64,000 nucleotides of DNA, taken from Brevundimonas sp. M20. GTDB taxonomy: Bacteria > Pseudomonadota > Alphaproteobacteria > Caulobacterales > Caulobacteraceae. The notes beneath the pieces were generated by a model. The model searched no databases. It was not told the origin of the DNA and saw nothing but the letters and a program-made list of their open reading frames with translations. How positions within the stretch are numbered: the first letter of the stretch is position 1; each line of letters begins with the position of its first letter. Where the stretch lies: assembly GCF_006547065.1 (NCBI RefSeq), contig NZ_CP041243.1, positions 1,937,001-2,001,000 of the forward strand, given 5' to 3'. Of this stretch, positions 3,069 to 36,925 are shown piece by piece. Made by a program: the position numbers and the translations under genes.

Positions 3069-4964
3069 ATGCCCATCCGTCGCCTCCCCCCCGAGACCGT
3101 CAATCGCATCGCCGCCGGCGAGGTGGTCGAACGCCCGGCCAGCGCCATCAAGGAGCTGGTCGAGAACGCGCTGGACGCGGGCAGCACCCGTATCGAGATC
3201 CAGGCGGACGGCGGAGGCCTGTCGCGCATCCTCATCGCCGACGACGGTCACGGCATGGCCCCGGACCAGCTGGCCCTGTGCGTCGAGCGCCACGCCACCT
3301 CCAAGCTGGAACCCGACGACGCGGGCGACGTGGACCTGCTGCGCATCCACACCCTGGGCTTCCGGGGCGAGGCCCTGCCCTCCATCGGCTCGGTCGCCCG
3401 CCTGACCATCACCAGCCGCCCCCGTGAAGGCGGCGACGCCCACCAGATCACCGTCGAGGGCGGCGACCAGAAACCTGTCGCCCCCGCCGGCTTCCCCGGC
3501 CCGCACGGCGCCCGCGTCGAGGTCCGCGACCTCTTCTACGCCACCCCCGCCCGGCTGAAGTTCATGAAGTCCGAGCGCTCGGAGGCCATGGCCATCTCGG
3601 AGGAGATCAAACGCCAGGCCATGGCGCATGAGGATGTCGCCTTCACCCTCGATCTCGACGGCAAGACCGTCCTGCGCCTGCCCGCCGAACACCCCGGCGA
3701 CCACGGTCGGTTGAAGCGCCTCGCCGCCCTGCTGGGCCGGGATTTCGAGGCCAACGCCCTGCTGATTGATCAGGAGCGCGACGGCGTCCGGCTGACCGGC
3801 TACGCGGGCCTGCCCACCTACAGCCGGGGCAACGCCGCCCACCAGTATCTGTTCGTCAACGGCCGCCCGGTGAAGGACCGCCTGCTGCAAGGCGCCCTGC
3901 GCGGCGCCTACGCCGACTTCCTCGCCCGCGACCGGCACCCGGCGGCGGTCCTCTTCCTCGACATCGACCCGCTCTATGTCGATGTGAACGTCCACCCGGC
4001 CAAGGCCGAGGTCCGCTTCCGCGATCCCGCCCTCGTGCGCGGCCTGATCGTCGGCGCCCTGCGCCACGCCCTCGCCGCCGCCGGCCACCGCGCCAGCACC
4101 ACAGTCGCCGCCGACGCCCTCTCAGGCTTCCGCGCCCACGAAGGCGTGACCGCGCCGGGTGTGGGGAGTGGGGCATGGGGTGTGGGGTCGGGCGGCGGAA
4201 ACGCCTCCGGCTACAGCGGCTGGCAAGCCTGGGCCGCCCCCGCCACCCAGACCGCCCAGATCCTCCCCGGCCTCAACGACCGCAGCGCCCGCGTCGAGAC
4301 CTTCGACACACCCCACACCCTGCACCCCACGCCCTACACGCCCGGCGCGCCCCACACCCCACACCCCACACCCGACCCCCTCGACTTCCCCCTCGGCGCC
4401 GCCCGCGCCCAGCTGCACGGCACCTATATCGTCGCCCAGACCCGCGACGGGCTGGTCGTGGTCGACCAGCACGCGGCGCACGAGCGGCTGGTCTATGAGC
4501 GGATGAAGTCCCAGATGGCCGAGGGGGCCGTCACCCGTCAGGCCCTGCTGGCGCCCGAGGTGGTCGAGCTGGACCCCGCCGAGGCCGACCGCGTCGCCGC
4601 CCGCGCCGAGGAGCTGGCCGAGCTGGGCCTGATCGTCGAAGCCTTCGGCGGCGGCGCCGTCCTGGTCCGCGAGACCCCCGCCCTGCTGGGCGACACCGAC
4701 GTTCAGGGCCTGATCCGCGACATCGCCGACGACCTCGCCGAACACGGCGCCGCCCTGTCGCTCAAGGAGCGCATGGCCGAAGTCTGCGGCACCATGGCCT
4801 GCCACGGCTCCGTCCGCGCGGGCCGCGTCCTCAGCGCCCCCGAAATGAACGCCCTCCTCCGCCAGATGGAAGCCACCCCACACTCAGGCCAGTGCAACCA
4901 CGGTCGGCCGACCTATGTGGAGCTAAAGCTGGGCGATCTGGAGAAGCTGTTCGGGCGGCGGTGA
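3069..4964 (+). CDS. mutL: DNA mismatch repair protein MutL
   Basis: A 631-aa GHKL ATPase and latent endonuclease linking MutS mismatch recognition to strand removal. N-terminal motifs are present: [13 protein letters not shown] (residues about 28-40), DDGHGM, and [11 protein letters not shown]. The C-terminal domain has [12 protein letters not shown], which fits the endonuclease motif DQHA(x)2E(x)4E, plus [10 protein letters not shown] and [11 protein letters not shown]. This is therefore a nicking-type MutL, unlike that of E. coli. The linker (residues about 363-436) is odd: it is partly encoded by heptanucleotide repeats and reads as Gly/Val/Ser-rich, then His-Thr-Pro-rich sequence, without breaking the frame. 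The photolyase gene is divergent from it, and an AT-rich island follows its stop codon. Confidence 0.95.
4157..4373. repeat. heptanucleotide inverted-repeat element A (inside mutL)
   Basis: The left arm (4157-4191) is five 7-nt units of the type GGGTGTG (variants GGGAGTG, GGGCATG, GGGTCGG). The right arm (4307-4373) holds complementary CACACCC units, three of them perfect at 4353-4373. About 115 bp of ordinary-looking mutL linker sequence lies between. All units keep the 7-nt register, and the reading frame is preserved. Related to elements B to E below. Confidence 0.8.
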
Positions 4965-5048
4965 GACAACGGCGATTTGCCAGTTTCCCGTAAAAGTCAT
5001 ACCCATTGCCTAGAATCACTGAAGCAATGGACTCTACGGAACCGCTAC

Positions 5049-5972
5049 ATGCCCGCCGCTATTGGTTTGAGATTTTACAAGATTTTTGCAAAACGCTTGC
5101 GTGGAAAATACGATGAAATCGCAACCGCTAGCGATCTCTCGGTGACCATACCTGACTATCTGTCCAACTTCGTAGACAGCCATTCCGAAGATGACACGGT
5201 TGCAGACGCTGAGAAGGAGCGTAGCTATTATTTCGTGCCTGCCGAAAATTACGGGATAGGCAGCATCCGAGGTCACGTGCACTACGGAACTTTCGGTTTC
5301 GAAAGCAAAATTAAAAAATACAAATCCAAGGCTGTGGCTTACAAGAGAGCTAGCAGCGACACCGAAGAAATAGCGCTCTATTTTGACATTTGGTGCGTTC
5401 CGAAAGAAGATTTCGCAATTTTGGCGTTACAATCTTTTGGAGGACGATCATGCGTTCATCTTGTTTTACATGACATGCAGATCGAATTTGAGAAAGCCAA
5501 CAAAGATTTTAGGCTTCACGCACACAAACTTATGGGCAACGATTCGCCCATAACCCTGTACGGTGACGCTCCCGTTAAGAAGTTAAAGCTCACTAAGCAC
5601 AATGCACAGAGCGATAGCTTCGGCAGTTACCGCCCCGGAAAGCCACCGCGGCCGGTCGATATTGAGATTTCCTACAAAGCGAAACGCGGCGGAGCGCTCG
5701 GTAGCCTTCGGGACATGGGCGGCGTACTGAACGAAAACGACAAGGGCATTATCGTTTTCGAAGGTGGCGAGTTCGACGAAGTGGTAGCGGAAGTGATGAT
5801 TGGTAATAGGCGTCGCCCCGTCGGCCTAATCGGAGCTAACTCCGAGACAGGTGCCATCGACGTCTCAGAATCCATCACTTACGGGGCCGACGGCCACCCC
5901 ACGCTCGACAGCATAAAAAAACAATCAAATCTAATAATCCAAGATTTCTATAAGCGCTTAAAGAGCATTTAG
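5049..5972 (+). CDS. unknown soluble protein of the AT-rich island (gene 1)
   Basis: A 307-aa protein from the ATG at 5049 (MPAAIGLRFYKIFAKRL). A TTG at 4977 would add 24 poor-looking residues. No signal peptide or membrane segment is visible. The N-terminal half is mixed alpha/beta with Tyr/Phe-rich strands (SYYFVPAENYGIGSIRGHVH). The middle has an apparent conserved core, EEIALYFDIWCVPKEDFAILALQS followed by a Gly-Gly turn, then an amphipathic helix. The C-terminal half has Gly-rich turns and ends KRLKSI. I do not recognise the family. One base separates it from the membrane gene, so the two are probably translated together as a cytosolic plus membrane pair, an arrangement common in anti-phage systems. 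The defence role is inference. Confidence 0.75.
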   Translation: MPAAIGLRFYKIFAKRLRGKYDEIATASDLSVTIPDYLSNFVDSHSEDDTVADAEKERSYYFVPAENYGIGSIRGHVHYGTFGFESKIKKYKSKAVAYKRASSDTEEIALYFDIWCVPKEDFAILALQSFGGRSCVHLVLHDMQIEFEKANKDFRLHAHKLMGNDSPITLYGDAPVKKLKLTKHNAQSDSFGSYRPGKPPRPVDIEISYKAKRGGALGSLRDMGGVLNENDKGIIVFEGGEFDEVVAEVMIGNRRRPVGLIGANSETGAIDVSESITYGADGHPTLDSIKKQSNLIIQDFYKRLKSI

Positions 5973-5973
5973 G

Positions 5974-6501
5974 ATGAAAATAGATATTATTCCGATAATA
6001 AAAGATCACATCGAAACGCTTCGAGACGACCGAAGCGGACGGTACTCATTCAACGATTTCGCGTTGTTTTACGGAGCCCCTTTGGTCGGAGGAGCATCAA
6101 TAGCTTACAGCTCAATAAAATTTGATTCCAACTTTTACAATGTATCAATAACATTTTTTGGAATATTTATAGCATTACTGCTAAATGTTCAGGTTGCTGT
6201 ATTTGGTATATTTCAAAGAAAATGGGAGAAACCTGAAGATGAAAACCTAGCCGAGATACAAAAATCCAAGCTGGAGCAACGCAGAAGTTTATTGGGCGAG
6301 CTAAATTCAAATTTGTCCTACTTAATATTGATCAGCTGCTTTTCTTTAGTTACTTTCTTAGTTTTTTTTGTTTTTCCTTTTCGTGGTTCATTTTCATCAG
6401 TTATTTCGTGCGTGCTATACGGTCACTTTGTTCTGACGCTGATGATGTCAGTAAAGCGAGCGCACACCTTGTTTCAGATGGAGTACGAAGGACATTGCTG
6501 A
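5974..6501 (+). CDS. unknown four-helix membrane protein of the island (gene 2)
   Basis: A 175-aa protein. After a charged N-terminus of about 28 residues there is one weak hydrophobic stretch (about 30-46) and three strong ones (about 55-80, 114-135 and 141-160). A charged cytosolic-type loop at 81-112 (EKPEDENLAEIQKSKLEQRR) resembles a short coiled coil. The C-terminus is short and ends in cysteine. The composition is AT-rich (many TTT, ATA and TTA codons), unlike its neighbours beyond the island. The start lies one base after the stop of gene 1. The family is not recognised. A membrane-effector role next to a soluble sensor is plausible by arrangement only. Confidence 0.75.
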   Translation: MKIDIIPIIKDHIETLRDDRSGRYSFNDFALFYGAPLVGGASIAYSSIKFDSNFYNVSITFFGIFIALLLNVQVAVFGIFQRKWEKPEDENLAEIQKSKLEQRRSLLGELNSNLSYLILISCFSLVTFLVFFVFPFRGSFSSVISCVLYGHFVLTLMMSVKRAHTLFQMEYEGHC

Positions 6502-6520
6502 TCGAGTAAAGCAACATAAT

Positions 6521-6690
6521 ACATTCCATCCTCTTCGCCTGCCTCGGCAACCTCTGTCGCTCGCCGCTCACCGAGGTTGCCCTGCGCGCTAAAGCCACCC
6601 GGCTCCGGCTTGAGCTGATCGTCGAATTCACCGGGAACGGGAACTGCATGCGGGCGAGTTGCCGAATAAGCGGGCCATCGCGGTGACCGC
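6521..6690 (+). pseudogene. decayed N-terminal fragment of a low-molecular-weight tyrosine phosphatase
   Basis: From 6528 the sequence translates as ILFACLGNLCRSPLTEVALR and continues alignably for about 45 codons. The intact phosphatase at 7412 reads ILFVCLGNICRSPLAEGALR, so nucleotide similarity is obvious. The start codon is lost: the bases before the first matching codon no longer spell ATG-CCC-TCC. Similarity fades after about 6650, and the frame ends at TGA 6684-6686. It lies on the same strand as the intact gene, at the distal edge of the AT-rich island. It may be a diverged partial duplicate or a remnant brought in with the island. Confidence 0.75.
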
Positions 6691-6729
6691 GCCCCGTCCC
6701 ACCAGCAGCACGACGACCGCCCCTCCCCC

Positions 6730-7272
6730 TCACACCCCCCGATCCGCCAGCATCGCCAGTTCCTCATAGATCGCGTCACCCGACCGGCTCTCGGCATTCC
6801 GCCAGTTGGTGGCGGTGGCGGGGTTCACCAGCATCCCGTCGGCCGTCAGGACCAGCACATTGGGCAGGCCGGGCAGTTCCGGCAGGCCGAACCGGCGGGC
6901 GATGGCGAGGTTGTGGCCGTCGCCGGTGCGGGGCATGCCGATGTTGACGAACACCAGCTCGTATTTGCGCTCGATCAGGGCGGCGAAGCGTTCGGTCTCC
7001 AGCCAGCCGGCCAGGGTGCGGCTGTCGCTGCACCAGTTGGCGCCCATGACCAGCAGGACCCGCTTGCCGGACGCCCGGGCGCGCTCCAGCGCCGCATCCA
7101 CGTCGCCCATCGCATTGTCGCTGACCAGATAGGCGCGCGCCTGCGGCCGGGGCGCTTCCGGCGGCGTCAACGCGACCGCCGCCACGGGCGCAGCAGGGGC
7201 GACCGGCCCGGAGGTGGTGGCGCAACCGGCCAGAGCGCTCGCGACCACGAGCAACGACACGACAGTTCTCAT
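6730..7272 (-). CDS. thioredoxin-family lipoprotein with single-Cys active site
   Basis: A 180-aa protein starting MRTVVSLLVV. An ATG three codons upstream is also possible. The signal peptide ends in lipobox LAGC, so Cys17 should be lipidated and the protein anchored in the envelope. After a Pro/Ala-rich spacer comes a thioredoxin-like domain with GANWCSDSRTL at the active site. Normal thioredoxins have CxxC; here the second cysteine is serine, so a dithiol reductase cycle is unlikely. An isomerase-like or binding role is possible. The cis-Pro region is seen in LPGLPNVLVL. It is divergent from the phosphatase gene. Confidence 0.8.
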   Translation of the reverse strand: MRTVVSLLVVASALAGCATTSGPVAPAAPVAAVALTPPEAPRPQARAYLVSDNAMGDVDAALERARASGKRVLLVMGANWCSDSRTLAGWLETERFAALIERKYELVFVNIGMPRTGDGHNLAIARRFGLPELPGLPNVLVLTADGMLVNPATATNWRNAESRSGDAIYEELAMLADRGV

Positions 7273-7411
7273 TTTCAGCATCCCCCCGCCGGCCTCATCG
7301 CCCGCGTCCGGCCCGCTTCTCCGACACTTTCGCGACGCGCTCAACAGCGTTCGCCACCGGCCCCGGAACCGTTCAGACTGCGCGGCCCATCCCGCCCCCA
7401 GGTCGCCCCCC

Positions 7412-7873
7412 ATGCCCTCCATCCTCTTCGTCTGCCTCGGCAACATCTGTCGCTCGCCGCTGGCGGAGGGCGCCCTGCGCGCGGAGGCGGCCCGGCTCGG
7501 GTTCGACCTGATCGTGGACTCCGCCGGGACCGGAAACTGGCACGCGGGCGAGGCGCCGGATGAGCGGGCGCAGCGCACCGCGCTGAAGCATGGCGTCGAC
7601 ATCTCGGCCCTGCGCGCGCGGCAGGTGACCAAGGGCGACTTCCGCCGCTTCACCCACATCATCGCGCTGGACCATGAGAACCTGTCCAACCTGCGCAAGC
7701 TGGCCCCGTCAGACTCGACCGCCGAACTCAGCCTGCTGCTGGACCACGTCCCCGGCCGCGAGGGTCAGGCCGTCACCGACCCCTGGTTCGGCGACGAGGC
7801 CGGGTTCGAGGTCACATGGGACGAGGTCGAGGCGGCGGCGCGGGGACTGGCGGCACAGCTTCGGGCGCTCTGA
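7412..7873 (+). CDS. low-molecular-weight protein-tyrosine phosphatase
   Basis: A 153-aa protein, the normal size for the family. The P-loop CLGNICRS at residues 8-15 gives nucleophile Cys8 and Arg14. The general acid Asp123 lies in DPWFG. The short distance from ATG to the P-loop supports the start at 7412. Family members dephosphorylate phosphotyrosine, including bacterial tyrosine kinases, or act in stress signalling; the substrate here is unknown. No tyrosine kinase is adjacent, and the exopolysaccharide genes are 17 kb away. A decayed partial copy lies at 6521-6690. The stop codon is followed by heptanucleotide element B. Confidence 0.9.
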   Translation: MPSILFVCLGNICRSPLAEGALRAEAARLGFDLIVDSAGTGNWHAGEAPDERAQRTALKHGVDISALRARQVTKGDFRRFTHIIALDHENLSNLRKLAPSDSTAELSLLLDHVPGREGQAVTDPWFGDEAGFEVTWDEVEAAARGLAAQLRAL

Positions 7874-7886
7874 GCGTCACTTTTGG

Positions 7887-7995
7887 GGGTGTGGGGTGTC
7901 GGGTGTGGGCATGCCCCGGCGTCCCGCCAATCCCCACTGCCCACTGCCCACTGCCTACTGCCTACCCGACACCCCACACCCCATCCCCTACGCCC
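7887..7995. repeat. heptanucleotide inverted-repeat element B
   Basis: Left arm: GGGTGTG, GGGTGTC, GGGTGTG, then GGCATGC (7887-7914). A short core follows, then right-arm units from 7933: three CCCACTG, CCTACTG, CCTACCC, GACACCC, CACACCC, CATCCCC, TACGCCC, all in 7-nt register. The core GGCATGCCCC-GGCGT-CCGC-ATCCC is shared with element C. The right arm runs over the stop codon (7988-7990) of the kelch gene. It lies between two convergent genes. Confidence 0.85.
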
Positions 7996-9037
7996 CAAAC
8001 CGCTCCACCACTCCCGTCGCCGCGCCGCCGGACACGACCGAGCCCCCGGCGATCGCATAGACCGCCCCGTCCACCGACGCCGCCGCCAGCCCGTGCCGGG
8101 GCGTCTTCATGTCCGGTCCCGCCGTCCACGCATCGCGCGCCGGGTCATAGAGCCAGGTCTCGGCGAACACGCCGCCGCCCCCTCCCCCGCTGTTTCTGGG
8201 GGCGAACCACTCCCCGCCGAACGCCACCAGCTTCCCGCCCGCTTCCGCCATAGCCAGCCCGCCGCCGACCTGATTGTTCTGCGCATGGGAGCGCGGGATC
8301 GGCGCCAAGGTGTCCCAGCGATCCGCCGCCGGGTCATAGCGATCCAGCCGCCCCGTCCCGCCGCCGCTGACCGTGCGTCCTCCAGCCACCCAGATCGCGC
8401 CGTCCAGCACCGCCGCCGCCGCGCTGTTGCGGGCCATCGGGCACGGCCGCGCCGTCTCCCAGCGTCCGTCCACCCGCACCAGATGCCGGTCGGTGTCGGC
8501 CTGCTCGTTCCAGCGGGCGTTGGCCGCGCCCGCCGGCGTCCGCCCGGTGATCAGGTGCAGCCGGTCGCCCACCCCCAGCCCCACCGCCTCGGCCTGCGGC
8601 GTCGGCAGGCCCGGCGCCTCGACCCAGCCGCCGTCCGTCAGCGTCCACGCCGTCGTCGTATTGACCCAGTCCCCGGCCCCGGTCCGCGCATAACCGCCGA
8701 CGATGTTCAGCTTCCCGTCCGCGACCACCACCATCGGGTGATGCCGGGCCTCGGGCAGGCGCGGCAGCTCGCTCCACGCATCCGCCGCCGGATCATAGGC
8801 GGCCACGCGATCCTCGACATGCAGCCCGCCCTGCCGCTGCACCAGACCGCCCGCCGTGACGATCTTCCCGTCCCACACCGCCGCATAGATCTCCTGCACG
8901 ATCCACGGCAGGGACGCGCGGCTGGTCCAGCCGCCCGGAGGCGCGGCCCGCGCGCGAGCCGCCAAGGGGGTTGTCAGGGGAACGAGGCCGAGTGCGGCTC
9001 CGGCGGCGATCAGGGTGCGGCGGTCGGGATGGGTCAT
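7988..9037 (-). CDS. secreted kelch-repeat protein (Tat signal)
   Basis: A 349-aa protein starting MTHPDRRTLI. The N-terminus has a twin-arginine pattern (DRRTLIAAGAALGLV) and then an Ala-rich cleavage region, so export as a folded protein is likely. The body shows six or so kelch-type blades, with repeated GG pairs followed by a spaced Tyr/Trp (VTAGGL, NIVGGYA, WVAGGRT, VAFGGEW, AIAGGSV). This predicts a beta-propeller. Kelch propellers bind ligands or act as sugar-related enzymes; nothing here fixes the substrate. The last codons and stop are written in element B, so the C-terminus may have been reshaped by the repeat. Confidence 0.85.
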   Translation of the reverse strand: MTHPDRRTLIAAGAALGLVPLTTPLAARARAAPPGGWTSRASLPWIVQEIYAAVWDGKIVTAGGLVQRQGGLHVEDRVAAYDPAADAWSELPRLPEARHHPMVVVADGKLNIVGGYARTGAGDWVNTTTAWTLTDGGWVEAPGLPTPQAEAVGLGVGDRLHLITGRTPAGAANARWNEQADTDRHLVRVDGRWETARPCPMARNSAAAAVLDGAIWVAGGRTVSGGGTGRLDRYDPAADRWDTLAPIPRSHAQNNQVGGGLAMAEAGGKLVAFGGEWFAPRNSGGGGGGVFAETWLYDPARDAWTAGPDMKTPRHGLAAASVDGAVYAIAGGSVVSGGAATGVVERFGA

Positions 9038-9120
9038 GGGGTCAGACTGACACGGCTTCGCGCACGTTCGCCACCTTCCCTCTCTTCCGCTCATCCTCGG
9101 GAGGGCGCGCCACGGCGCCT

Positions 9121-9247
9121 GGGTGTGGGGTGTGGGGTGTCGGCATGCCCCACGGCGTTCCGCTCATCCCTACTCCCTACTCCCTACTCCCTACTCCCTA
9201 CTCCCTACTCCCTACTCCCCACACCCCACACCCCACACCCCACACCC
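9121..9247. repeat. heptanucleotide inverted-repeat element C
   Basis: Left arm: GGGTGTG, GGGTGTG, GGGTGTC, GGCATGC (9121-9148). The core is like that of element B. Then come seven perfect TACTCCC units (9171-9219) and four perfect CACACCC units (9220-9247). It lies between the kelch gene and the HTH gene, which are divergent. The perfect tandem tract should be prone to slippage and could vary in length between strains. Confidence 0.9.
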
Positions 9248-9312
9248 TCAAAAATTGCGCGCGTCCGATCCGTACGACCAAATTTGACGTACCGGCGGTT
9301 TATCGTGCGCGA

Positions 9313-9789
9313 ATGACCGACGCTTATCGCATCCGCCCCGTCCGAACCTGGCTTCTCGCGCGCGACGCCTATCTCGGCGGCCTGACCGCCGAAACCGTGT
9401 GCCGCATGTACGATCTGGGCCTGTCCGCCTTCCGGCGCCGCGCCCGCAAATACAGCTGGCGGCGCATGGACAATGTCGGCGACCCCGCCTCCGAACGGGA
9501 CCGCTCCATCTATGACGATGTGGAGGTCGAGGAGCAGATCGAGACCGCCCGCCTGCGCTTTCTCCAGACGCTGGAGCAGGGCAAGGCGCTGGAAGCCCTG
9601 CGCTGGCGCAAGCTCTGGGGGGAGTTGCGGACCGAGTCCGCCGCCTTTGATGCAGCCTTCTTCAGGGACATGACCCCGGAGGAGATCAGCGCCTTTCATG
9701 CCTCACCGCACGAGTACGAGGACGAGGACACCGAAGAAGACGCGGCCCTGCTCAGTGCGCCCCGGCGTGACGTCCATGACGAGGACTGA
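9313..9789 (+). CDS. small HTH protein, terminase-small-subunit-like
   Basis: A 158-aa protein from the ATG at 9313; longer readings run through repeat element C. The N-terminal region (WLLARDAYLGGLTAETVCRM, then a Leu-Ser-Ala-FRRRARKY helix ending YSWRR) looks like a helix-turn-helix of the kind found in phage terminase small subunits and related regulators. The middle is a Glu/Arg-rich helical segment and the C-terminus is strongly acidic (EYEDEDTEED). It is not next to a large terminase or other phage genes, so a stand-alone DNA-binding role is more likely. It converges on rsmD. Confidence 0.6.
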   Translation: MTDAYRIRPVRTWLLARDAYLGGLTAETVCRMYDLGLSAFRRRARKYSWRRMDNVGDPASERDRSIYDDVEVEEQIETARLRFLQTLEQGKALEALRWRKLWGELRTESAAFDAAFFRDMTPEEISAFHASPHEYEDEDTEEDAALLSAPRRDVHDED

Positions 9790-29922: not shown

Positions 29923-30624
29923 TCAACCCGTCAAGCGGCGCAGGAAGGCGGGCGCCCTGTAGGTCGAGCGGTTGACCACAACGCCTGCGATTTTCCCGCC
30001 GACGGCCTCGATCTCGTCGCGCAGGATCAGCGGCTCGTTCGCCGAGGTGCTGCCTGCCGCCACGACCAGCACGGTCGCGTCCACGAAGGGGGCCAGGGTG
30101 ATGGCCGTGTCGCTGCGATCCCCGGCCGGGGCGTCGATCACCACCGTATCGGCATGACGACGCAGGGCGTCCCAATAGCGCGCGTCCGCCAGGACCTCGG
30201 CCCGCTGGCCCGAGCGCAGATGCTCGCCCGCGAAACGCGTGCCCCACAACCGTCCGCCGAGGAAGGGCCGCGCCGTGACCAGCCGGGCCGGATGCACCGG
30301 CTTGCCCTCGCGGTCGGTGATGCGCGGGGTGACGGCGAAAAAGATCGAGCCGTCCGGCGTCGCCATGGCCGCCTTGCCCGGGCGACCGAAGCGATCCGGC
30401 TCGGAGGCCATGGCCTCGACCTGCCCCTGCTGCGCCAGATCGGCGTCCACCAGCCAGACGGGGCGGCGTGCGCGGACGGCGGCGAGCCGGGCGTACTCGC
30501 GCGCGACGGTGGACACGCCCTCGCCGCTGTTGGCGGCGGCGATCTGGATCACGCGACCACGATGGCCCGGCGCTGGTCCCAGCGCCGCCCAAAGGGCCGC
30601 CATTTCGGACGTCAGATCGACCAT
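29923..30624 (-). CDS. hfsB: HfsB-like ParA/Wzc-type ATPase-fold protein with degenerate Walker A
   Basis: A 233-aa protein with the fold of the cytoplasmic half of bacterial tyrosine kinases. The Walker A position reads NSGEGVSTVAREYA, with Val where the catalytic Lys (GKS/T) should be. The A' motif is VWLVDADLAQ and Walker B is TVVIDAPA. There is no C-terminal tyrosine cluster. It sits right after hfsA, as in Caulobacter hfsDAB, where HfsB acts with HfsA in polysaccharide export or chain-length control. It is likely a partner of HfsA and not a competent kinase. Confidence 0.82.
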   Translation of the reverse strand: MVDLTSEMAALWAALGPAPGHRGRVIQIAAANSGEGVSTVAREYARLAAVRARRPVWLVDADLAQQGQVEAMASEPDRFGRPGKAAMATPDGSIFFAVTPRITDREGKPVHPARLVTARPFLGGRLWGTRFAGEHLRSGQRAEVLADARYWDALRRHADTVVIDAPAGDRSDTAITLAPFVDATVLVVAAGSTSANEPLILRDEIEAVGGKIAGVVVNRSTYRAPAFLRRLTG

Positions 30625-30678
30625 CGAATCGTTACGCGCCTGTCCTGAACCCGAACGCTAACACGGGGCGGGTCAGGC

Positions 30679-32124
30679 TCATCGTCCCTTCATCGGGGCA
30701 ACGGCGAGAACCGGCATCTCCAGCGTGCGGCCGGTCGACGCCGGCGTCACGAAGCCACGCTGGGTGAACACGCGCAGCAGGCCGACGCACAGGGCGGTGA
30801 AACCGGCGAACAGGAAGACCGCCGCCAGCAGCGGGAGCTTCAGGCTCTTGCCCCGGGTCGGGGCCTCCGCGCGGGCGATGACGGTGACATTGTCGGCGCC
30901 GGCGGCCACCAGGGCGCTGTCGGCTCGGGCCTCGGTCTCCCGCTGCTGAAACTCGCGAACCTTGGCCGTCAGCACCTCGCGGTTGCCCGCCAGCGTCGAA
31001 TTGGTCGATTCCAGCTGGGTCAGATGGGCCTGACGCTGACGCAGGGTGTTGAGCTGACCCTCCAGCACCGCCAGACGGGCCGCCAGGGCATCCCGGTCGG
31101 CGGCGGCGTTGATCCGGGTCGTCTCGATCTCGGTGAAGATGGTGCTGGGGCCTGTGCGGACCTCCTTGGCGCCGACGGTCGTTCCCGTCGCCACATAGGC
31201 CTGAAGCTGGGCGATGCGCTGGTCGATGTCGCGCACCGGCTGGGCGTCCTCGGTATAGCGGGCCAGCAGGTTCTCGCGCTCTGTCCGCAGGGTCAGGATC
31301 TGGTCCTGCGCCGAAATGTTCAGGTCCTGCTGCAACACCACCTCGGACGGCTGCCGCGCCAATTGGGTCTCCAGGGTCCGCAGGCGTTGCGTCGCCTGAT
31401 TCAGCTGCGCCCGGACCGACAGAGTCTCGGCGAAGGTGGTCTGGTAGGTCGCCGCAAGCGTCGCCTTGGAGGTCGCGAAATCGCCGATGTCATTCGACCG
31501 CAGGAAGGCCTCATAGGCGTTATCGGCGGTCGCCAGCTCGTTCTCGAACGCCTCGCGCTGGGCGGTGAAGGCCGGGCTGGCGCGGTCGCGGAAGACGTTG
31601 CGGCGCTGGATCAGGTACTGGTCGACCACGGCGTTCAGGATGCGGGCGGCGCGCTCGGGATCGCCGGCCTCATAGGACACGGAGATGATGGCGCTGGCCG
31701 GAGTCGTGCCGACGCCCAGCCCGGCGTCTAGCGCCTTCAGCGCGGCCAGTTCCTTCTCCGTCGTCGTCCCCTTGGCGTCCGGCCCCAGAATGACGTCGGC
31801 GCCCAGAGCCTGCACAGCGCGGCGCTTCACTTCCAGACTACCGAGGATCTGCGCTTCAGCCTGCGCCACCGCGGACGCTTCCAGCGGCTGGGCCGTCCGG
31901 TCGGTCACGCCCACGCGAGGCTGATACACATACTCCTGCCCTGCGCCCGCGTAGACGCTGGAGGTCGCGGTGTAGGTCTTCTTGAGGGTCAGAACCGCCG
32001 CCGCGCCGATGGCGAACACGGCCAGGAAGATGACGATCATCAGCAACAGCTCGCGGAACAGCAGGCCGACAATGTCAGCGAAGCCGTAGCGCGGCCGGAC
32101 TGTCGTATAGGCCGTCGTGCGCAT
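30679..32124 (-). CDS. hfsA: HfsA-like polysaccharide co-polymerase (Wzz/Wzc N-terminal type)
   Basis: A 481-aa inner-membrane protein. Transmembrane helices lie at about residues 26-48 (LLLMIVIFLAVFAIGAAAV) and about 440-462. The long periplasmic part between is largely coiled coil with many Gln/Glu/Leu heptads (QLNQATQRLRTLETQLARQP; AERDALAARLAVLEGQLN). This is the Wzz/PCP architecture without an attached kinase; hfsB supplies that half as a separate gene. Role: control or coupling of holdfast polysaccharide export with the outer-membrane channel HfsD. It is divergent from hfsD. Confidence 0.88.
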   Translation of the reverse strand: MRTTAYTTVRPRYGFADIVGLLFRELLLMIVIFLAVFAIGAAAVLTLKKTYTATSSVYAGAGQEYVYQPRVGVTDRTAQPLEASAVAQAEAQILGSLEVKRRAVQALGADVILGPDAKGTTTEKELAALKALDAGLGVGTTPASAIISVSYEAGDPERAARILNAVVDQYLIQRRNVFRDRASPAFTAQREAFENELATADNAYEAFLRSNDIGDFATSKATLAATYQTTFAETLSVRAQLNQATQRLRTLETQLARQPSEVVLQQDLNISAQDQILTLRTERENLLARYTEDAQPVRDIDQRIAQLQAYVATGTTVGAKEVRTGPSTIFTEIETTRINAAADRDALAARLAVLEGQLNTLRQRQAHLTQLESTNSTLAGNREVLTAKVREFQQRETEARADSALVAAGADNVTVIARAEAPTRGKSLKLPLLAAVFLFAGFTALCVGLLRVFTQRGFVTPASTGRTLEMPVLAVAPMKGR

Positions 32125-32182
32125 GCGAACGGAGTGATTCCATCAAACGGGACTGTTGAGCCTCAGCCTTCGCCCACCCGCG

Positions 32183-32197
32183 TTAACCATGGGTTAC
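32183..32197. promoter_or_regulatory. CtrA-like motif between hfsA and hfsD
   Basis: TTAACCATGGGTTAC matches the CtrA consensus TTAA-N7-TTAA at seven of eight fixed positions. It lies 51 bases upstream of the hfsD start and 59 upstream of the hfsA start, where it could time both transcripts in the cell cycle. Binding is inferred only. Confidence 0.5.
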
Positions 32198-32247
32198 CCA
32201 TAAGCCCTCACCTTGCCGTCAACGCCGCTTTCGGGAGCGATTCCGCC

Positions 32248-33000
32248 ATGTCCATCGACCGTCGCCTGTTGCTGCTCGGCCTTATCGGCGGCGCCGGCGC
32301 GCTCGCGGCTTGCGGCGGAGCCTCCGGCGCGGCTCCCCTGCCCGGCCAGTCCCGCGCTCCGAACCGGGTGCAGTCAGTCGGCCGCCGCTCGTTCCCGGAG
32401 ATCGGCTTCGCCGACTGGTCGGACGACGAACCGGAATATGTCCTGTACCCCGGCGACGAGATCGAGATCGCCACCCCGACCGCCACCGAGCTGACCCGCA
32501 CCCAGCGGATCGGACCGGACGGGCGGGTCTCCCTGCCTCTGGTCGGCCAGCTCATGGCGGCGGACCGCACTATCGCCGAACTGGAGGCCGACGCCTCCAC
32601 AGCCTACGCCAGCCAGCTGCGTCGTCCGATGGTCGAGGTGACTCTGAAGACCGCCGGACCGATCCGCGTCTGGGTCGGCGGCGAGGTCCGCACCCCGGGC
32701 ATGATCGAGATGAACGGCGATCTGGACGCCTATCAGGCCATTATCCAGGCGGGCGACTTCCTGCCGACGGCCAAACAGGGCGAGGTCGCCCTGATCCGTC
32801 GCGGTCGGGGCGGGGTGCGCATGATGCGCGCCGCCGATCTGCGCCCCCGTCGCGGAGAGGTCATCGCCCTGCGTCGCGGCGACATCCTCTTCGTCCCGCG
32901 CTCAACCCTGGGTGAAGTCGCCAATTTCGTCACCCAGTTCCGCAACGCTCTCCCGGTCGGGTTCACGTATGCGCTGGGCGGGCAGTATCAGAGCTTCTAG
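32248..33000 (+). CDS. hfsD: HfsD-like polysaccharide export outer-membrane lipoprotein (Wza family)
   Basis: A 250-aa lipoprotein starting MSIDRRLLLLGLIGG; GGGAG 8-12 bases upstream supports it. Lipobox LAAC precedes CGGASG. The Poly_export domain (about 70-150) has YVLYPGDEIEI, IGPDGRVSLPLVGQL and ELEADASTAYASQL. A SLBB-like domain follows, with GEVRTPGMIEMNGDLDAYQAI and LRRGDILFVPRS. It should form the outer-membrane channel for holdfast polysaccharide, with HfsA as its inner-membrane partner. Confidence 0.9.
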   Translation: MSIDRRLLLLGLIGGAGALAACGGASGAAPLPGQSRAPNRVQSVGRRSFPEIGFADWSDDEPEYVLYPGDEIEIATPTATELTRTQRIGPDGRVSLPLVGQLMAADRTIAELEADASTAYASQLRRPMVEVTLKTAGPIRVWVGGEVRTPGMIEMNGDLDAYQAIIQAGDFLPTAKQGEVALIRRGRGGVRMMRAADLRPRRGEVIALRRGDILFVPRSTLGEVANFVTQFRNALPVGFTYALGGQYQSF

Positions 33001-33046
33001 GGCTCGACGGACGGCGTCGCCAGAACCCTCAAAAGTTGTGCGCCGA

Positions 33047-33510
33047 AGTGATTAGTGGTTAGTGGCGAGTGGATCGCAGCCGCAACGGTTCGCACTCATG
33101 GCTCAAGGCATCGCCAGCTATCGTGATCTGTCTGTCTGGCGGCAGTCGCTCGACTGGGCTGAGGCGATCTACGAAGCGACGGCTCATTGGCCTCGCGACG
33201 AACGCTTCGGGCTGATCAGTCAGGTCCGGCGCGCCGCCGTCTCGATTGCCTCGAATATCGCTGAAGGTTCAGCCAGACGGAGCACTGGAGAATTCATTCA
33301 GTTTCTGGGCATCGCCAAGGGCTCTCTGGCCGAGGCCGAAACCCAACTGCTGCTGGCGGAGAGGCTGTCCTACCTCTCCAGAGCCGACGCCCGAGCGCTT
33401 TTATTGGCGTCATCGGACATCAACCGTATGCTGGTCGCGCTCTCTACATCACTGAAGAAGCGCGCCGACGGCTGATCCAGCCATCCACTAATCACTATGC
33501 ACTAACCACT
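33047..33510. repeat. heptanucleotide inverted-repeat element D carrying a four-helix-bundle gene
   Basis: Left arm: AGTGATT, AGTGGTT, AGTGGCG, AGTGGAT (33047-33074). Right arm: ATCCACT, AATCACT, ATGCACT, AACCACT (33483-33510), the complement of the same unit in the same 7-nt register. The four-helix-bundle gene (33098-33475) sits exactly between them. Same design as elements A, B, C and E but with a different heptamer sequence. Confidence 0.85.
33098..33475 (+). CDS. four-helix-bundle protein (S23 / 23S rRNA-intervening-sequence type)
   Basis: A 125-aa protein of the S23/IVP family. It opens MAQGIASYRDLSVWRQSLD, then AEAIYEATAHWPRDERFGLI, and has the hallmark QVRRAAVSIASNIAEGSAR and IAKGSLAEAETQLLLAERL. 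This predicts four antiparallel helices, likely pentameric as in family structures. Members occur in rRNA intervening sequences, near diversity-generating retroelements (Avd) and as solitary genes of unknown role. Here there is no reverse transcriptase or rRNA nearby. The gene is framed tightly by heptanucleotide arms, suggesting that gene and repeats moved as one unit. The ATG at 33098 matches the usual start. Confidence 0.88.
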   Translation: MAQGIASYRDLSVWRQSLDWAEAIYEATAHWPRDERFGLISQVRRAAVSIASNIAEGSARRSTGEFIQFLGIAKGSLAEAETQLLLAERLSYLSRADARALLLASSDINRMLVALSTSLKKRADG

Positions 33511-33544
33511 GGTGATCCCGGTGATCAGTCGTAGCGAGCACAGA

Positions 33545-33850
33545 TCAAGCCGCCAGCCGCACCACGCCAGCGTCGATATACCGGCGGGCCGCCTTCTGGG
33601 CTTCCGAGATTTCCTCCCGCTCCATCTCCTGGCTCATCTCGCGGCGATAGACGCGCGCTTCGATGCTGCCCTTCATGGCGGCGAGGTTGAAGATCATGTG
33701 GGCCGACACGCGGTCCATCGGGCAACCGTTCTGGCCCGTGGAGTACATCATGCCCAGACGGAACAGGTCGTCCCCGCTCATGTCCGCGGTCGGCAGCGGC
33801 AGCGCCGCATCCTCGACCATCATTTCTGGCGCCGTTTCTTGCGCGATCAT
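33545..33850 (-). CDS. small Sel1-like repeat protein
   Basis: A 101-aa protein starting MIAQETAPEMM. One clear Sel1-like repeat, LFRLGMMYSTGQNG and then DRVSAHMIFNLAAMKGS, predicts a helix-turn-helix pair for protein binding. A charged helix follows (REMSQEMEREEISEAQKA). No signal peptide is present, so it should be cytosolic. Similar short proteins occur in Caulobacterales but their role is unknown to me. The stop lies about 35 bases beyond the right arm of element D. Confidence 0.7.
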   Translation of the reverse strand: MIAQETAPEMMVEDAALPLPTADMSGDDLFRLGMMYSTGQNGCPMDRVSAHMIFNLAAMKGSIEARVYRREMSQEMEREEISEAQKAARRYIDAGVVRLAA

Positions 33851-33993
33851 CACCGTGTCTCCGGTTCTGAGGCCGTTCTGGCCCCGTCCTGTGACCCGAG
33901 TGAAATACCCGCGGTTTGAACACAGAGTTAACAGCAAGGGGGTCCGAAGGGCTTTTAAGCGAAATCGGACCTACTTTCTGCGCCGCGTAAAGA

Positions 33994-34028
33994 CCTCTGA
34001 AATCTCTCGATAATCCCTGATTCAGAGG
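33994..34028 (-). terminator. inverted repeat downstream of the GST gene
   Basis: CCTCTGAA and TTCAGAGG are separated by 19 bases, about 35 bases after the GST stop codon. On the minus strand the stem is followed by TCTTTAC. The loop is long, so this is a weak terminator candidate. The rest of 33851-34063 shows no other gene. Confidence 0.35.
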
Positions 34029-34063
34029 CCCTAACGAGTCGTCACCGGAACCCTTACACAGGG

Positions 34064-34786
34064 TTACCGCGCGCGCTGGCCGAACAGGAGCTTGCGGGCC
34101 GCCTCCGCATCCTTGCCGGACGCCGCGAGGTTCTTGCGCAGCTCATCGCCCAGCGCCCTGCCCCGCTGCACCGCCGGTCGTTCGCCCACCCGAGCCAGCC
34201 AGGCCTTCAGGTTCGGAAACTCGTCGATGTTCTGCCCCTGCAGTTCCGGCAGGATCCAGGGCCAGGCGGCCATGTCAGCGATGGAGTATTCTCCGGCCAG
34301 ATAGTCCCGGTCCGCCAGCCGTCGGTCCAGCACGCCATACAGACGGTGTGTCTCGTCGGTATAACGGCGAACACCGTAGGCGATCTGGCGTTGGTCGCGG
34401 ATCAGGGCCGGCGCATACTGTCGGAAGTGATGGGTCTGCCCCGCCATCGGCCCAAGGCCGCCCACCTGCCAGAACAGCCATTGGTCCACCTCGGCCTTGC
34501 CGCGCAGATCATGCGGATAGAATTTGCCCGACTTCGCGCCGAGGTATTGCAGGATCGCTCCGGACTCGAAGATCGACAGCGGCAGGCCATCCGGCCCGTC
34601 AGGATCGACAATGGCCGGCATCCGTCCGTTCGGACTGATCCGCTGGAAAGCCGGCTCGAACTGTTCGCCCGCGCCGATGTTCACCGGCTTCAATTCATAG
34701 GGCAGCCCCATCTCCTCCAGCGCGATGGACACCTTCCAGCCATTCGGCGTGGGCCAGTACCAGAGTTCGATCGGGCGGACGGTCAT
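34064..34786 (-). CDS. glutathione S-transferase family protein, YfcG/YghU-like
   Basis: A 240-aa protein. The N-terminal thioredoxin fold (about residues 1-85) has ELWYWPTPNGWKVSIALEE and NGRMPAIVDPDGP, then SIFESGAILQYLG with the glutathione-binding Glu-Ser. The C-terminal helical domain begins QWLFWQVGGLGPMAGQTHHF, a signature of the Nu-class YfcG/YghU branch, which acts as a disulfide-bond reductase with two glutathiones. The active-site Thr/Asn pair is represented by TPNG. The start MTVRPIELWYW at 34786 is chosen; longer readings have no support. Confidence 0.88.
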   Translation of the reverse strand: MTVRPIELWYWPTPNGWKVSIALEEMGLPYELKPVNIGAGEQFEPAFQRISPNGRMPAIVDPDGPDGLPLSIFESGAILQYLGAKSGKFYPHDLRGKAEVDQWLFWQVGGLGPMAGQTHHFRQYAPALIRDQRQIAYGVRRYTDETHRLYGVLDRRLADRDYLAGEYSIADMAAWPWILPELQGQNIDEFPNLKAWLARVGERPAVQRGRALGDELRKNLAASGKDAEAARKLLFGQRAR

Positions 34787-34859
34787 GACGGCTCCTGTGT
34801 CGGTTACGGTCGAGGTGGGCGCCCGGCCTCGCGCGCGCAACGTTGAACCTGACAGGAAT

Positions 34860-34876
34860 GTTCAGAAGCAGTTCAT
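34860..34876 (+). promoter_or_regulatory. direct repeat GTTCAG-N5-GTTCAT upstream of the first RcnB gene
   Basis: Two hexamers in an 11-bp period, the spacing usual for OmpR/PhoB-family sites, lie 63 bases before the start at 34940. The same motif occurs before the second RcnB gene at 35655-35671, also about 61 bases from its start. Confidence 0.55.
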
Positions 34877-34939
34877 GCAGGAAGAACGACCTTCCCTTCA
34901 ACGGACCGGCTCACTGCGGGTCCCGCATGGAGACCGAAG

Positions 34940-35551
34940 ATGAACCGTTTCACCAAGGCCGCGATTGTCGGGCTGGCGCTGGCGACCACCGCCGCTCCGC
35001 TCGCCGCCCAGGCCCAGAACCGCGGCGACCGCCAGGAACGCCGTGACGATCGTCGCGACTATCGCCAGGATCGTCGGGACGACCGTCAGGACTATCGCCG
35101 CGAACGACGCGATGATCGCCGCGACTGGCGTCAGGGCGATTACGACAACCGGCAGGATTATCGTCAGGACCGCCGGGACGACCGGCGCGATTATCGCGCC
35201 GAGCGCCGGGATGATCGTCGCGACTACCGCAGTGACCGGCGTTGGGAGCGCGGCAGCCGCGACTGGTGGCGTGGCCGCAGCGATTTCCGCGACTATCGTG
35301 GCGCCCGCAACGGCTATTGGTACGCGCCCAACTACGGCTACTACCGCGTCGAGCCGCGCTACTACGGCTATCGCTGGCAGCGCGGCGGCTACCTGCCGTC
35401 GGCCTATCGCGGCTACTATGTGCGTGACCCGTATGTGTACAACCTGCGTCCGGCCCCGCGCGGCTATCGCTACGTCCATGCCGGCAATGACATCGTGCTG
35501 ATCGCCATCGCCTCCGGCCTGATCGCCAGCGTGCTGTACGACGTCTTCTAG
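34940..35551 (+). CDS. RcnB family protein with Arg/Asp-rich repeats
   Basis: A 203-aa exported protein. The signal peptide ends AAPLAAQAQ (residues about 1-27). Residues about 28-105 are repeats of [11 protein letters not shown] type, highly charged and probably disordered. The C-terminal domain (about 120-203) has [21 protein letters not shown] and ends [14 protein letters not shown], the RcnB-like pattern. RcnB of E. coli is a periplasmic factor in Ni/Co homeostasis, but most alphaproteobacterial members have unknown function and abundant copies. It is followed by a strong terminator and then by a second member, so the pair is likely a tandem duplication. Confidence 0.82.
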
Positions 35552-35576
35552 ACCCGGAACGCACATCGCCTGAACC

Positions 35577-35608
35577 ACGCCCCGTGGATTCGTCCGCGGG
35601 GCGTTTTT
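35577..35608 (+). terminator. rho-independent terminator after the first RcnB gene
   Basis: ACGCCCC and GGGGCGT form a stem around GTGGATTCGTCCGC (in which GTGGA/TCCGC can also pair) and are followed directly by TTTTT. Confidence 0.85.
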
Positions 35609-35654
35609 CGTGGGCGCTTTCCATTGACCGAAGCTTAATGTGACGACGTCGTTC

Positions 35655-35671
35655 GTTCAGTCACCGTTCAG
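35655..35671 (+). promoter_or_regulatory. direct repeat GTTCAG-N5-GTTCAG upstream of the second RcnB gene
   Basis: A perfect 11-bp-period direct repeat, 61 bases before the start at 35733. It matches the site at 34860-34876, so both genes probably answer to the same regulator. Confidence 0.55.
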
Positions 35672-35732
35672 CATGAGGGCGCGACCGTGGGATCAAGCCG
35701 CCTGACAGGGGCGTGCGGAGAAACGAACGAGA

Positions 35733-36773
35733 ATGAAACGCTCACTTATGGTCGCCGTGACCATCTCGGCCCTGATGGCGCCTTTGGTCGCCCCGGTCGC
35801 CGCCGCGGCCCAGGACACCCCGTTCCGTCGTGGTGGTGATCGCCAATCCGGCGACCACCAACGGACCGCCCCCCAGACCGACTCCGCGCCCGAGCCGCGC
35901 CGCGAACGCCCGGCTCCGCAACCGCGCGAAGACCGCCCGGAACGTCCCGACCGCCCCCGGCAACCGCGTCCGGATCGGCCGCAGCAACCTGACCGGCCGC
36001 AACAACCGCGGCCTGACCGTCCGGATCGGCCTGATCGTCCGCAACAGCCCCGTCCGGATCGGCCGGACCGCCCCGACCGGCCGCAACAACCGCGTCCGGA
36101 TCGCCCCCAACAACCGGATCGTCCCGGCCGTCCAGACCGCCCGCAACAGCCGGGACGTCCTGATACGCCGAACCGCCCGGATCGCCCCGACCGGCCGGAC
36201 CGTGACCGGCCCGGCCAACCGAACCGTCCTGACCGCCCCAACGGCGGATGGGATCGGGATCGTCCCAACGGCGGCCAGAATGGCGGATGGGACCGCGACC
36301 GGGATCGGGATCGTCCCAACAACGGCGGTGGCCGTGACCGGGATCGTGACCGGGATCGTGACCGCCCGAATGGCGGCTGGGATCGGGGTCGTGACCGGGA
36401 TCGCACCCGTGACGACTTCCGCCGCCGATTCAACGGCGACCAGTGGCGCCGTGACTGGAACCGCAACCACGGGCGGGACTGGTGGCGGAGCGACCGTCGC
36501 TGGCGCGACTATCGCGGCGTCCGGATCGGCTTCTATTTCGCGCCGGGCCACGGCTACTACAGCGTGCCCCGCTCGTACTGGAACCAGCGCTGGTATGTCG
36601 GCGACTACCTGCCTTCAATCTTCTGGCGCTATCAGTTGAACGACTGGCGCACCTACGGCCTGGGCTATCCGCCCGAAGGCACGCGCTGGGTGCTGGTCGA
36701 CAACCACATCTACCTGATTGACGAGTACGACGGGTACATCATCGACGTCATCTACGACGCCTGGCGCTGGTAA
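35733..36773 (+). CDS. RcnB family protein with long Pro/Arg/Asp/Gln repeat region
   Basis: A 346-aa exported protein. Signal peptide about residues 1-27 (APVAAAAQ). Residues about 45-225 are imperfect repeats of PDRPQQPRPDRPDR type, then of DRDRDRPNGGWDRD type; the DNA repeats too, so length may vary between strains. The C-terminal domain (about 245-346) has DWWRSDRRWRDYRG, YFAPGHGYYSVPRSYW and VGDYLPSIFWRY, like other RcnB proteins, and ends in WRW. The repeats predict an extended, charged periplasmic segment that could bind wall or metal. It is homologous to the gene before it, with a much longer repeat section. Confidence 0.82.
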   Translation: MKRSLMVAVTISALMAPLVAPVAAAAQDTPFRRGGDRQSGDHQRTAPQTDSAPEPRRERPAPQPREDRPERPDRPRQPRPDRPQQPDRPQQPRPDRPDRPDRPQQPRPDRPDRPDRPQQPRPDRPQQPDRPGRPDRPQQPGRPDTPNRPDRPDRPDRDRPGQPNRPDRPNGGWDRDRPNGGQNGGWDRDRDRDRPNNGGGRDRDRDRDRDRPNGGWDRGRDRDRTRDDFRRRFNGDQWRRDWNRNHGRDWWRSDRRWRDYRGVRIGFYFAPGHGYYSVPRSYWNQRWYVGDYLPSIFWRYQLNDWRTYGLGYPPEGTRWVLVDNHIYLIDEYDGYIIDVIYDAWRW

Positions 36774-36790
36774 GCGTCCGGGCATAGCGG

Positions 36791-36816
36791 CGCCGGCGGC
36801 TCCAGGGCCGCCGGCG
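36791..36816 (+). terminator. GC-rich hairpin after the second RcnB gene
   Basis: CGCCGGCGGC and GCCGCCGGCG form a perfect 10-bp stem with loop TCCAGG, 17 bases after the stop codon. Only TTCG follows, so a weak T-tract. Confidence 0.6.
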
Positions 36817-36829
36817 TTCGCGCGTGGAC

Positions 36830-36925
36830 GGTGATTGGTGATTGTTGCCACCGCTTCACTGACCGCGGAAGGGTGGTGCGGACCGCGCCACCCCATACCG
36901 CCGGCCAATCACCAACCACCAATCA
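36830..36925. repeat. heptanucleotide inverted-repeat element E
   Basis: Left arm: GGTGATT, GGTGATT, GTTGCCA (36830-36850). Right arm: CCAATCA, CCAACCA, CCAATCA (36905-36925). About 54 bases lie between, and include a GGTGG...CCACC-type hairpin. It sits in the intergenic space before ppk1, and its 7-nt register is the same as in elements A to D. Confidence 0.75.

Follow-up and report, generated by a model that had tools for sequence, protein, structure and literature searches.

Inverted heptamer arrays around S23/four-helix-bundle genes in Brevundimonas sp. M20 and other bacteria probably represent small mobile elements of one family

We analyzed a 64,000-nt stretch of the Brevundimonas sp. 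M20 genome (contig NZ_CP041243.1, positions 1,937,001 to 2,001,000; hereafter the window), in which five loci, designated A to E, carry an array of 7-nt units followed by an array of the complementary heptamer, with a gene of the S23 (23S_rRNA_IVP, four-helix-bundle; 4HB) family enclosed at D. A preliminary description made from the sequence had listed these five loci, and direct reading together with Tandem Repeats Finder (TRF) recovered all of them at the same coordinates (Table 1). Under a strict pair rule, which demands period-7 arrays on both sides that share a heptamer in inverted orientation no more than 700 nt apart, the window holds five inverted pairs at four loci (two at A, one each at B, C and E); 40 order-3 Markov replicas average 0.05 pairs, and none has more than 1. 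The arms of D are too degenerate to pass this rule (inverted-repeat score 12; period-7 scores 10 and 6). Among periods of 4–12 nt, all those other than 7 give fewer long arrays in the window. A 400-kb sample of the 3.3-Mb home genome yielded seven inverted pairs, one of them a further 4HB element (L003), versus none in each of five replicas. Set against this composition-matched model, inverted pairs are therefore in excess, but single period-7 stretches are not (37 versus 32.4 in the window; 24 versus 25.8 in the genome sample). In 400 kb of each of two relatives, the pair count was zero for G044, where no 4HB gene was detected, and one for G008, which has one 4HB gene (0–1 in replicas).

The preliminary description held that the heptamer differs between loci; three types do occur in the window, but A, B and C all share GGGTGTG. 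B and C have composite right arms, with GGGTGTG-type units outside and CCCACTG or CCCTACT units inside. The strict 7-nt register ascribed to all five loci had to be given up, as A, D and E contain substituted units. As to the payloads, D encloses a gene, the sequence between the arms of A belongs to the host gene mutL, and B, C and E consist of arms without a gene. The arms of E lie only ~60 nt apart and hence leave no room for an S23 gene, and the short core ahead of the right array of C partly aligns with that of B. Loops of roughly 25–85 nt with no S23 gene are seen in B, C and E and likewise in additional copies from the genome sample. Two aspects had been overlooked, namely the tie to the S23/4HB gene inside D and the recurrence of the design across bacteria. 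Because the second array is the reverse complement of the first, either strand could fold into a long hairpin; the predicted folding energies of the five elements range from −48.6 to −199.1 kcal/mol (calculated without a shuffle control). Elsewhere in the window, TRF reported long degenerate tandem repeats of 33/42/84 bp (35030–36216).

Table 1. Coordinates of the inverted heptamer arrays and associated features in the window.
Feature	Position	Strand	Basis and details
A, left GGGTGTG array, within mutL	4157..4188	+	Reading, TRF, strict rule; MutL 945 bits
A, inter-arm sequence: mutL linker, host and not cargo	4189..4306	+	30 mutL loci, 54 genomes
A, right CCCCACA array; heptamer varies by species	4307..4373	+	Reading, TRF, strict rule
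B, left GGGTGTG array	7886..7909	+	Reading, TRF, strict rule
B, right composite array	7933..8001	+	Inner CCCACTG/CCTACTG 7933-7962; outer CCCGACACCCCACA 7964-8001; reading, TRF, strict rule
C, left GGGTGTG array	9121..9140	+	Reading, TRF, strict rule
C, right composite array, inner CCCTACT, outer CCCCACA units	9167..9248	+	Reading, TRF, strict rule
D, left arm, AGTGATT/AGTGGTT/AGTGGCG units	33047..33071	+	Reading, TRF, scores 12 and 10 (L002)
D, gene, 23S_rRNA_IVP / four helix bundle (S23), 125 aa from ATG	33098..33475	+	Pfam, TIGR, PDB matches
D, right heptamer arm, complement of left	33485..33510	+	Reading, TRF, inverted-repeat scoring
E, left GGTGATT array	36830..36844	+	Reading, TRF, strict rule
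E, right CCAATCA array	36905..36926	+	Reading, TRF, strict rule

The protein encoded in D matches Pfam PF05635 (23S_rRNA_IVP; 8.6e-36), TIGR02436 (four helix bundle protein; 3.7e-35) and PDB entry 2gsc (1.2e-25). By sequence, 2gsc and 2rld (five chains each) are its only solved relatives, and the nearest solved structure is XCC0516 of Xanthomonas campestris. An alternative, longer form of the gene would start from a GTG at 33062. Five 4HB loci are present in the home genome, one of them broken (L005/L006), and inverted arms were read at all five. These include arrays of AGTGATT/AGTGGTT (D), AGGGATT (L003) and GGGTGTG/C (L004), as well as arms with two heptamers in alternation, AATTAGG and GCGTAGG (L005). 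One arm type (AGTGCTAGTGAGC...), whose 7-nt period is unclear, was found in several genomes (L001, L046, L052, L216), at 4HB genes and at thiC of G003. A tblastn search of a phage collection with the D protein gave no match at E ≤ 1e-5.

Within the genus and order, 18 of 41 genomes carry a 4HB gene. An inverted-repeat score of at least 12 was obtained at 28 of the 31 loci read (home 5/5, relatives 23/26), the three low-scoring ones all being shortened by a contig end, and a period-7 score of at least 9 in one or both arms at 23 of the 31. We also scanned GTDB representative genomes with the D protein as query and kept the best 80 loci, of which 77 could be scored (three at contig edges were dropped). 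According to their record titles, the best 80 derive from Proteobacteria, Bacteroidota, Planctomycetes, Acidobacteria, Fibrobacter, Nitrospirae, the Candidate Phyla Radiation (CPR) and others. Inverted-repeat scores reached at least 16 at 37 and at least 14 at 51 of the 77 loci, levels that none of the 68 control pairs, sampled 1 kb farther outward, attained (highest score 12), and period 7 was the best period, with an arm score of at least 9, at 55 of 77. Units of 8 instead of 7 nt were noted at L114, L130, L132, L143 and L112 (some Acidobacteriaceae, one planctomycete and Kordia). Eleven plasmid copies from 27 records (ten cyanobacterial, one Azospirillum) were read by eye, all with inverted arms of short tandem units, mostly of 7 nt. 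The arms are also consistently oriented, the G-richer one lying on the left in each of the 40 copies scored within the genus and order; of the 50 wide-set copies that show a difference, 46 follow this pattern. Among the AGTGGCG arrays listed as lying less than 1 kb apart, 14 pairs are convergent, none is divergent and one runs on the same strand. Convergent pairs with an S23 gene between the arms do not fit the class of simple slippage repeats, that is, unpaired tandem units free of cargo; the mutL arrays with a right arm only are the exception that does. Plasmid 4HB insertions lie within operons at cas6/cas4, cas10/cmr3 and nrdB/nrdA. Two annotated four helix bundle genes of CRISPR-cas operons (L405, L399) are hairpin-armed insertions; at the second of these (Anabaena sp. 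90, cas6/cas4; L399 500–900), the left arm is vastly expanded to ~300 nt of GGTGACA/GGGAACA units, and a near-identical Dolichospermum plasmid (L421) has no element and unrelated sequence at the site.

Filled and empty forms of the same site were compared on plasmids and in the home genus. One plasmid site holds an element in Trichormus variabilis and Scytonema and none in Nostoc linckia and Microchaete, with flanks ~98% alike; more plasmid records of equal length are found among the matches listed for the Trichormus/Nostoc linckia site. The empty site reads AAAAAGTAATTAAC and the filled one AAAAAGTAAT-element-GTAATTAAC, where a 423-nt element (L402) is bordered by a 5-bp duplication, GTAAT; in a relative, Nostoc C052 (L408), a remnant is preserved along with the left arm. 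Two related plasmids of Nostoc sp. ATCC 53789 carry an element at different positions in one gene set, and a 413-nt element (L420) lies between copies of TTCTA, of which the paralogue has a single one, bar one G. The L402 and L420 elements share 78% identity over 419 nt, and the similarity ends no more than 5 nt from the element ends at otherwise unrelated sites. The hallmarks of miniature inverted-repeat transposable elements (MITEs) and terminal-inverted-repeat transposons, inverted ends and a duplication of constant length, are seen with 5 bp exactly at two sites, with four of five positions at a third and inexactly at others. A hairpin with GGGAACT-like arms, geneless by annotation (L415 820–1060), was observed where related plasmids hold a complete element. 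At the D site, both flanks were read at 23 of the 30 loci retrieved: the element is present in the home genome (G000) and in G074, and absent from the other 21; among these, G048 has a geneless heptamer array of 34 nt at the place of D. In G062, a D-like copy lies downstream of the same left flank. Between scoA and scoB, four of 29 loci with both flanks contain a GGGTGTG-type 4HB element and 25 are empty, 11 of these with an identical 32-nt spacing (among them G043, whose flanks show 95 and 92.5% similarity); G006 is a fifth genome with the element, there on a cut contig. Exact insert boundaries were sought at scoA|scoB and not found. In other genomes of the genus, a different dispersed repeat (GGGCTACCGCTCGC...GCTGCTTGAGC type, recognized by eye) occurs at thiC (L217, L230), the D site (L077, L079) and sco (L388, L394, L396), and the sites holding the D, thiC and sco inserts look like general insertion hot spots.

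Arrays inside two host genes, mutL and thiC, change their heptamer between species. Of 56 mutL loci, 54 were extracted; both arms are present in 12 (11 callable loci and G070, with scores 20 and 7), the right arm only in 11 (right at least 11, left below 7), the left arm only in one, and, at these thresholds, neither in 30 (co-occurrence p = 4e-5). The sequence between the arms is kept whether arrays are present or absent, and is that of the host. For thiC, 30 loci were retrieved from 56 genomes with a match: 16 carry an in-frame insert made of arms and a short core, 12 are empty at one identical length, and two have other inserts. By species, the inserts are of the types GGGTGTG (5), AGTGGCG (8), AGGGTCG (1), a GAGGGNC mix (1) and AGTGCTAGTGAGC (1, with another core). 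The draft genome G022 (C52 and C6; contamination listed as 6) has two thiC matches, of which one contains an array insert and the other a short gap. Among loci with two callable arms, the arms match at six or more of the seven positions in 12 of 13 thiC and 10 of 11 mutL loci.

The heptamer type is further related to the 4HB gene of the same genome. Across 32 elements, it correlates with the relatedness of the 4HB proteins (r = 0.475, Mantel p = 0.0005); three of an initial 35 were dropped for want of a callable protein, and the automatic heptamer of L046 is a spurious neighbouring stretch. The array heptamer matches the genome's own 4HB type in 21 of 34 rows, as opposed to 7.5 ± 2.6 after permutation (P = 0.0002; phylogeny not controlled). 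Automatic arm calling overlooks degenerate arms: those at thiC of G003 were scored '-' and the row tallied as discordant, yet they read AGTGCTAGTGAGC, like the 4HB element of this genome. GGGTGTG is found at thiC in exactly those five of 16 insert-bearing genomes that have a GGGTGTG-type 4HB element (p = 2e-4), and at mutL in four of five genomes with such an element versus 0 of 18 (p = 6e-4). Counted genome-wide and including the element's own arrays, GGGTGTG arrays occur in 5/5 genomes with a GGGTGTG 4HB element and 5/56 others (p = 4e-5), and AGTGGCG arrays in 7/7 genomes with an AGTGGCG 4HB element and 20/54 others (p = 0.002). A reversed-pattern control for AGTGGCG gave zero in all 61 genomes; the GGGTGTG counts lack a valid control of this kind, since reversing this unit only rotates it. 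Taken together, orthologous sites may lack an array, hold part of one or carry a different heptamer, and fixed identical arrays, which would have spoken against the preliminary suggestion of a dispersed, possibly mobile, repeat family, were not seen; along with the excess of inverted pairs, this supports the suggestion.

The swapping of heptamers at mutL and thiC could alternatively reflect allelic exchange between species by homologous recombination, with no rewriting of arrays, a possibility that we take seriously but consider doubtful on balance. Core similarity tracks the heptamer type when flank similarity is allowed for (thiC: partial r = 0.38, p = 0.0025, 14 genomes; mutL: 0.215, p = 0.008, 19 genomes), and filled and empty thiC alleles are intermixed in the flank tree, both in line with such exchange. 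However, GGGTGTG occurs together at thiC, mutL and scoA|scoB in lineages that are separated in the mutL/thiC-flank tree (G000/G018, G014 and G065), so that exchange would require several unlinked transfers each time. Given the core similarity, a rewriting of the arms only at thiC, set against exchange of the whole insert, is not proven.

The design also extends to ribosomal RNA genes. On plasmid p2 of Azospirillum lipoferum 4B (L404), an unannotated relative of the D protein (42% over residues 5–76) lies inside a single LSU_rRNA_bacteria match (1424 bits), and the ends of this stretch read AGAGGAC GGATGAC AGAGGAC GGAGGAC and the approximate complement. For Coxiella, the accessible part of ref. 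PMC4990558 describes a 23S intervening sequence with three tandem heptamers directly ahead of the S23 open reading frame (ORF), in numbers that vary among strains, and a 23S copy cleaved out by RNase III without ligation. The same text calls the function and origin of intervening sequences unclear 25 years after their discovery and names transposition among several hypotheses. The CPR paper, in the part available, reports 23S_rRNA_IVP ORFs in both 16S and 23S inserts and calls the domain functionally uncharacterised. Since L404 combines heptamer arms with a location in rRNA and Coxiella has tandem heptamers, certain 23S intervening sequences have the same design, and at least some of them appear to be this element type lodged in rRNA; by extension, this may apply to all. 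D shares with them the PF05635/TIGR02436 protein and hairpin ends, and differs in that it lies between protein genes. Intervening sequences are defined by their location, whereas most copies described here are outside rRNA: in the 20 of the best 80 scanned loci that were searched, Rfam gave no rRNA, in contrast to L404. Nor do the accessible parts of the published accounts compared mention movement with target duplication.

We consider it likely that the five loci represent a family of small mobile S23 elements that are bounded by heptamer arms, move as a unit and create a 5-bp duplication at the target; S23 is the likely factor that binds the arms. The latter role is suggested by the recurrence of the gene, by the correlation between heptamer and protein, and by its resemblance to Avd, an accessory protein of diversity-generating retroelements (DGRs). 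A complete copy of ~400–500 nt consists of a G-rich array of mostly 7-nt units, the S23/4HB gene and the reverse complement of the array. It would insert as a unit, several times between operon genes, leaving the 5-bp target duplication, and the geneless copies (B, C, E and others) may be non-autonomous. The S23 protein would bind the arms or the arm hairpin, preferring its own heptamer, and could, together with host nucleases and repair, assist the insertion and amplification of elements and arrays in trans; we infer the action of S23, the cutting enzyme and the rewriting step. The architecture, its spread among bacteria, the filled and empty sites, the target duplications, the differing heptamers at orthologous loci and the concordance within genomes are direct observations. 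After a lineage with a new heptamer has settled, the mutL and thiC arrays may acquire that heptamer by arm rewriting or by exchange of the whole insert. A bolder version, which we put forward tentatively and would not presently favour, is a pan-bacterial class of mobile elements with S23 as the sole protein and almost any heptamer at the ends, imposed in trans throughout the genome, of which 23S intervening sequences would be the rRNA copies.

Several observations weigh against this reading. Exact target duplications were found at two sites only (GTAAT and TTCTA); a third site in Nostoc (L419) shows TAATG/TTATG, a 4/5 match. For plasmid sites N, C, R and cas10|cmr3, filled and empty forms are clear, but a search for exact boundaries gave none. 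Arms are not always plain heptamer arrays: L005 alternates two heptamers, and the arms of L001 (AGTGCTAGTGAGC...), as in its relatives L046 and L052, are inverted with a period closer to 11 than to 7. The 31-locus set was scored without a control, and wide-set controls got as high as 12, its threshold; 26 of the 77 wide-set loci score under 14. In the heptamer concordance, 13 of 34 rows disagree under a lenient criterion of at least 6/7 positions, and the permutation tests ignore phylogeny and gene exchange. AGTGGCG arrays are held by G019 and G055, in which the 4HB gene was not detected, and five of ten genomes with GGGTGTG arrays have no GGGTGTG-type 4HB element. As cores are more alike within a heptamer type, the swapping comes in part from the exchange of entire inserts. 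Finally, an action of S23 on DNA or RNA arms rests on inference and not on biochemistry.

Two established mechanisms find no support in the home genome. RVT_1 (PF00078) has no match in the complete home genome (18 of 61 genomes match at E ≤ 1e-3, 14 above the cut-off), and neither has Y1_Tnp (PF01797), which was found in 1 of 61 genomes and in 5 of 14 control genomes, in a transposase survey confined to Y1. With neither domain present, retrohoming by a typical reverse transcriptase and RAYT transposition are not in sight at home, and DGR-like reverse transcription and a Y1/RAYT mechanism were set aside as unsupported there. The elements might instead be MITE-like passengers that an ordinary cellular DDE transposase mobilizes in trans, with S23 as cargo or helper. 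We regard this as unlikely, even though terminal inverted repeats and 5-bp duplications are typical of many transposons and the transposase survey covered Y1 only. A DDE transposase requires a conserved end, and the variation of the ends among elements of one genome and across phyla therefore counts against such passengers, as do the S23 gene as a recurring partner and the near absence of the surveyed Y1 transposase. Less likely still are immobile arrays that grow by slippage, have their second arm copied by template switching within the hairpin and change type by drift. Such growth would suit the mutL arrays (right arm alone in 11 of 54 genomes, left alone in one), the agreement of arms in 22 of 24 callable mutL and thiC cases and their variable length, as well as the abundance of heptanucleotides, which the available text of ref. 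PMC4679880 ranks as the most abundant long simple-repeat class in most surveyed genomes. It leaves unexplained the S23 gene between the arms, the target duplications and the heptamer shared by unlinked loci; slippage or template switching is nevertheless probably part of how the arms stay alike. Least probable is that selection keeps the hairpins for a role in RNA, as RNase III sites or protein-binding regulators of mRNA, and not through mobility: the cleaved Coxiella 23S copy, the several copies between operon genes and the low folding energies (again without a shuffle control) would agree with it, but patchy presence, insertion in the coding linkers of mutL and thiC and target duplications do not.

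Among known systems, repetitive extragenic palindromic doublets forming hairpins (REPINs) and their associated tyrosine transposases (RAYTs) are comparable to the mobile S23 elements proposed here. According to the part of ref. PMC3116915 available, REPINs are dispersed inverted doublets of a short sequence that form hairpins, each type with its specific protein. Dispersed inverted pairs able to form hairpins, of types tied to a specific protein, are likewise found here; unlike in REPINs, Y1 was not detected at home (1/61 genomes), the arms consist of units repeated in tandem, with many different sequences, and complete copies contain the gene. Short tandemly repeated repetitive (STRR) sequences of cyanobacteria, which in the text accessible to us serve for fingerprinting, and the GGGNATC repeats of Xanthomonas share the tandem heptamers, the latter also the convergent pairs: 70 and 75 pairs, with one array per strand, are given for two Xanthomonas genomes in the available parts of refs. 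PMC4692102 and PMC4679880, where such repeats are treated as G-quadruplex or regulatory repeats. A term search of both papers found neither 'four helix' nor 'S23'. With DGRs, the elements share the protein family, as Avd resembles PF05635 (PMC10053308, in the part available), and possibly the hairpin, since a DGR target requires a DNA hairpin whose stem sequence may vary (PMC3240598, likewise in part); they differ in that no reverse transcriptase was detected at home, in a comparison based on the RVT_1 search. Small inverted-repeat mobile elements are known already, some 23S intervening sequences being instances. In the literature within reach, which was limited for subscription journals and bioRxiv, the pieces are known separately and no publication joining S23/IVP with heptamer arms or mobility was found; given this reach, novelty is not proven.

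The four helix bundle insertions in CRISPR-cas operons (L405, L399) could misdirect searches based on guilt by association. Ends that vary between species and yet match each other would differ from the conserved ends of known transposons. If a mobile element is built around S23, 4HB genes in operons, STRR sequences, the Xanthomonas pairs and 23S inserts may form one testable problem.

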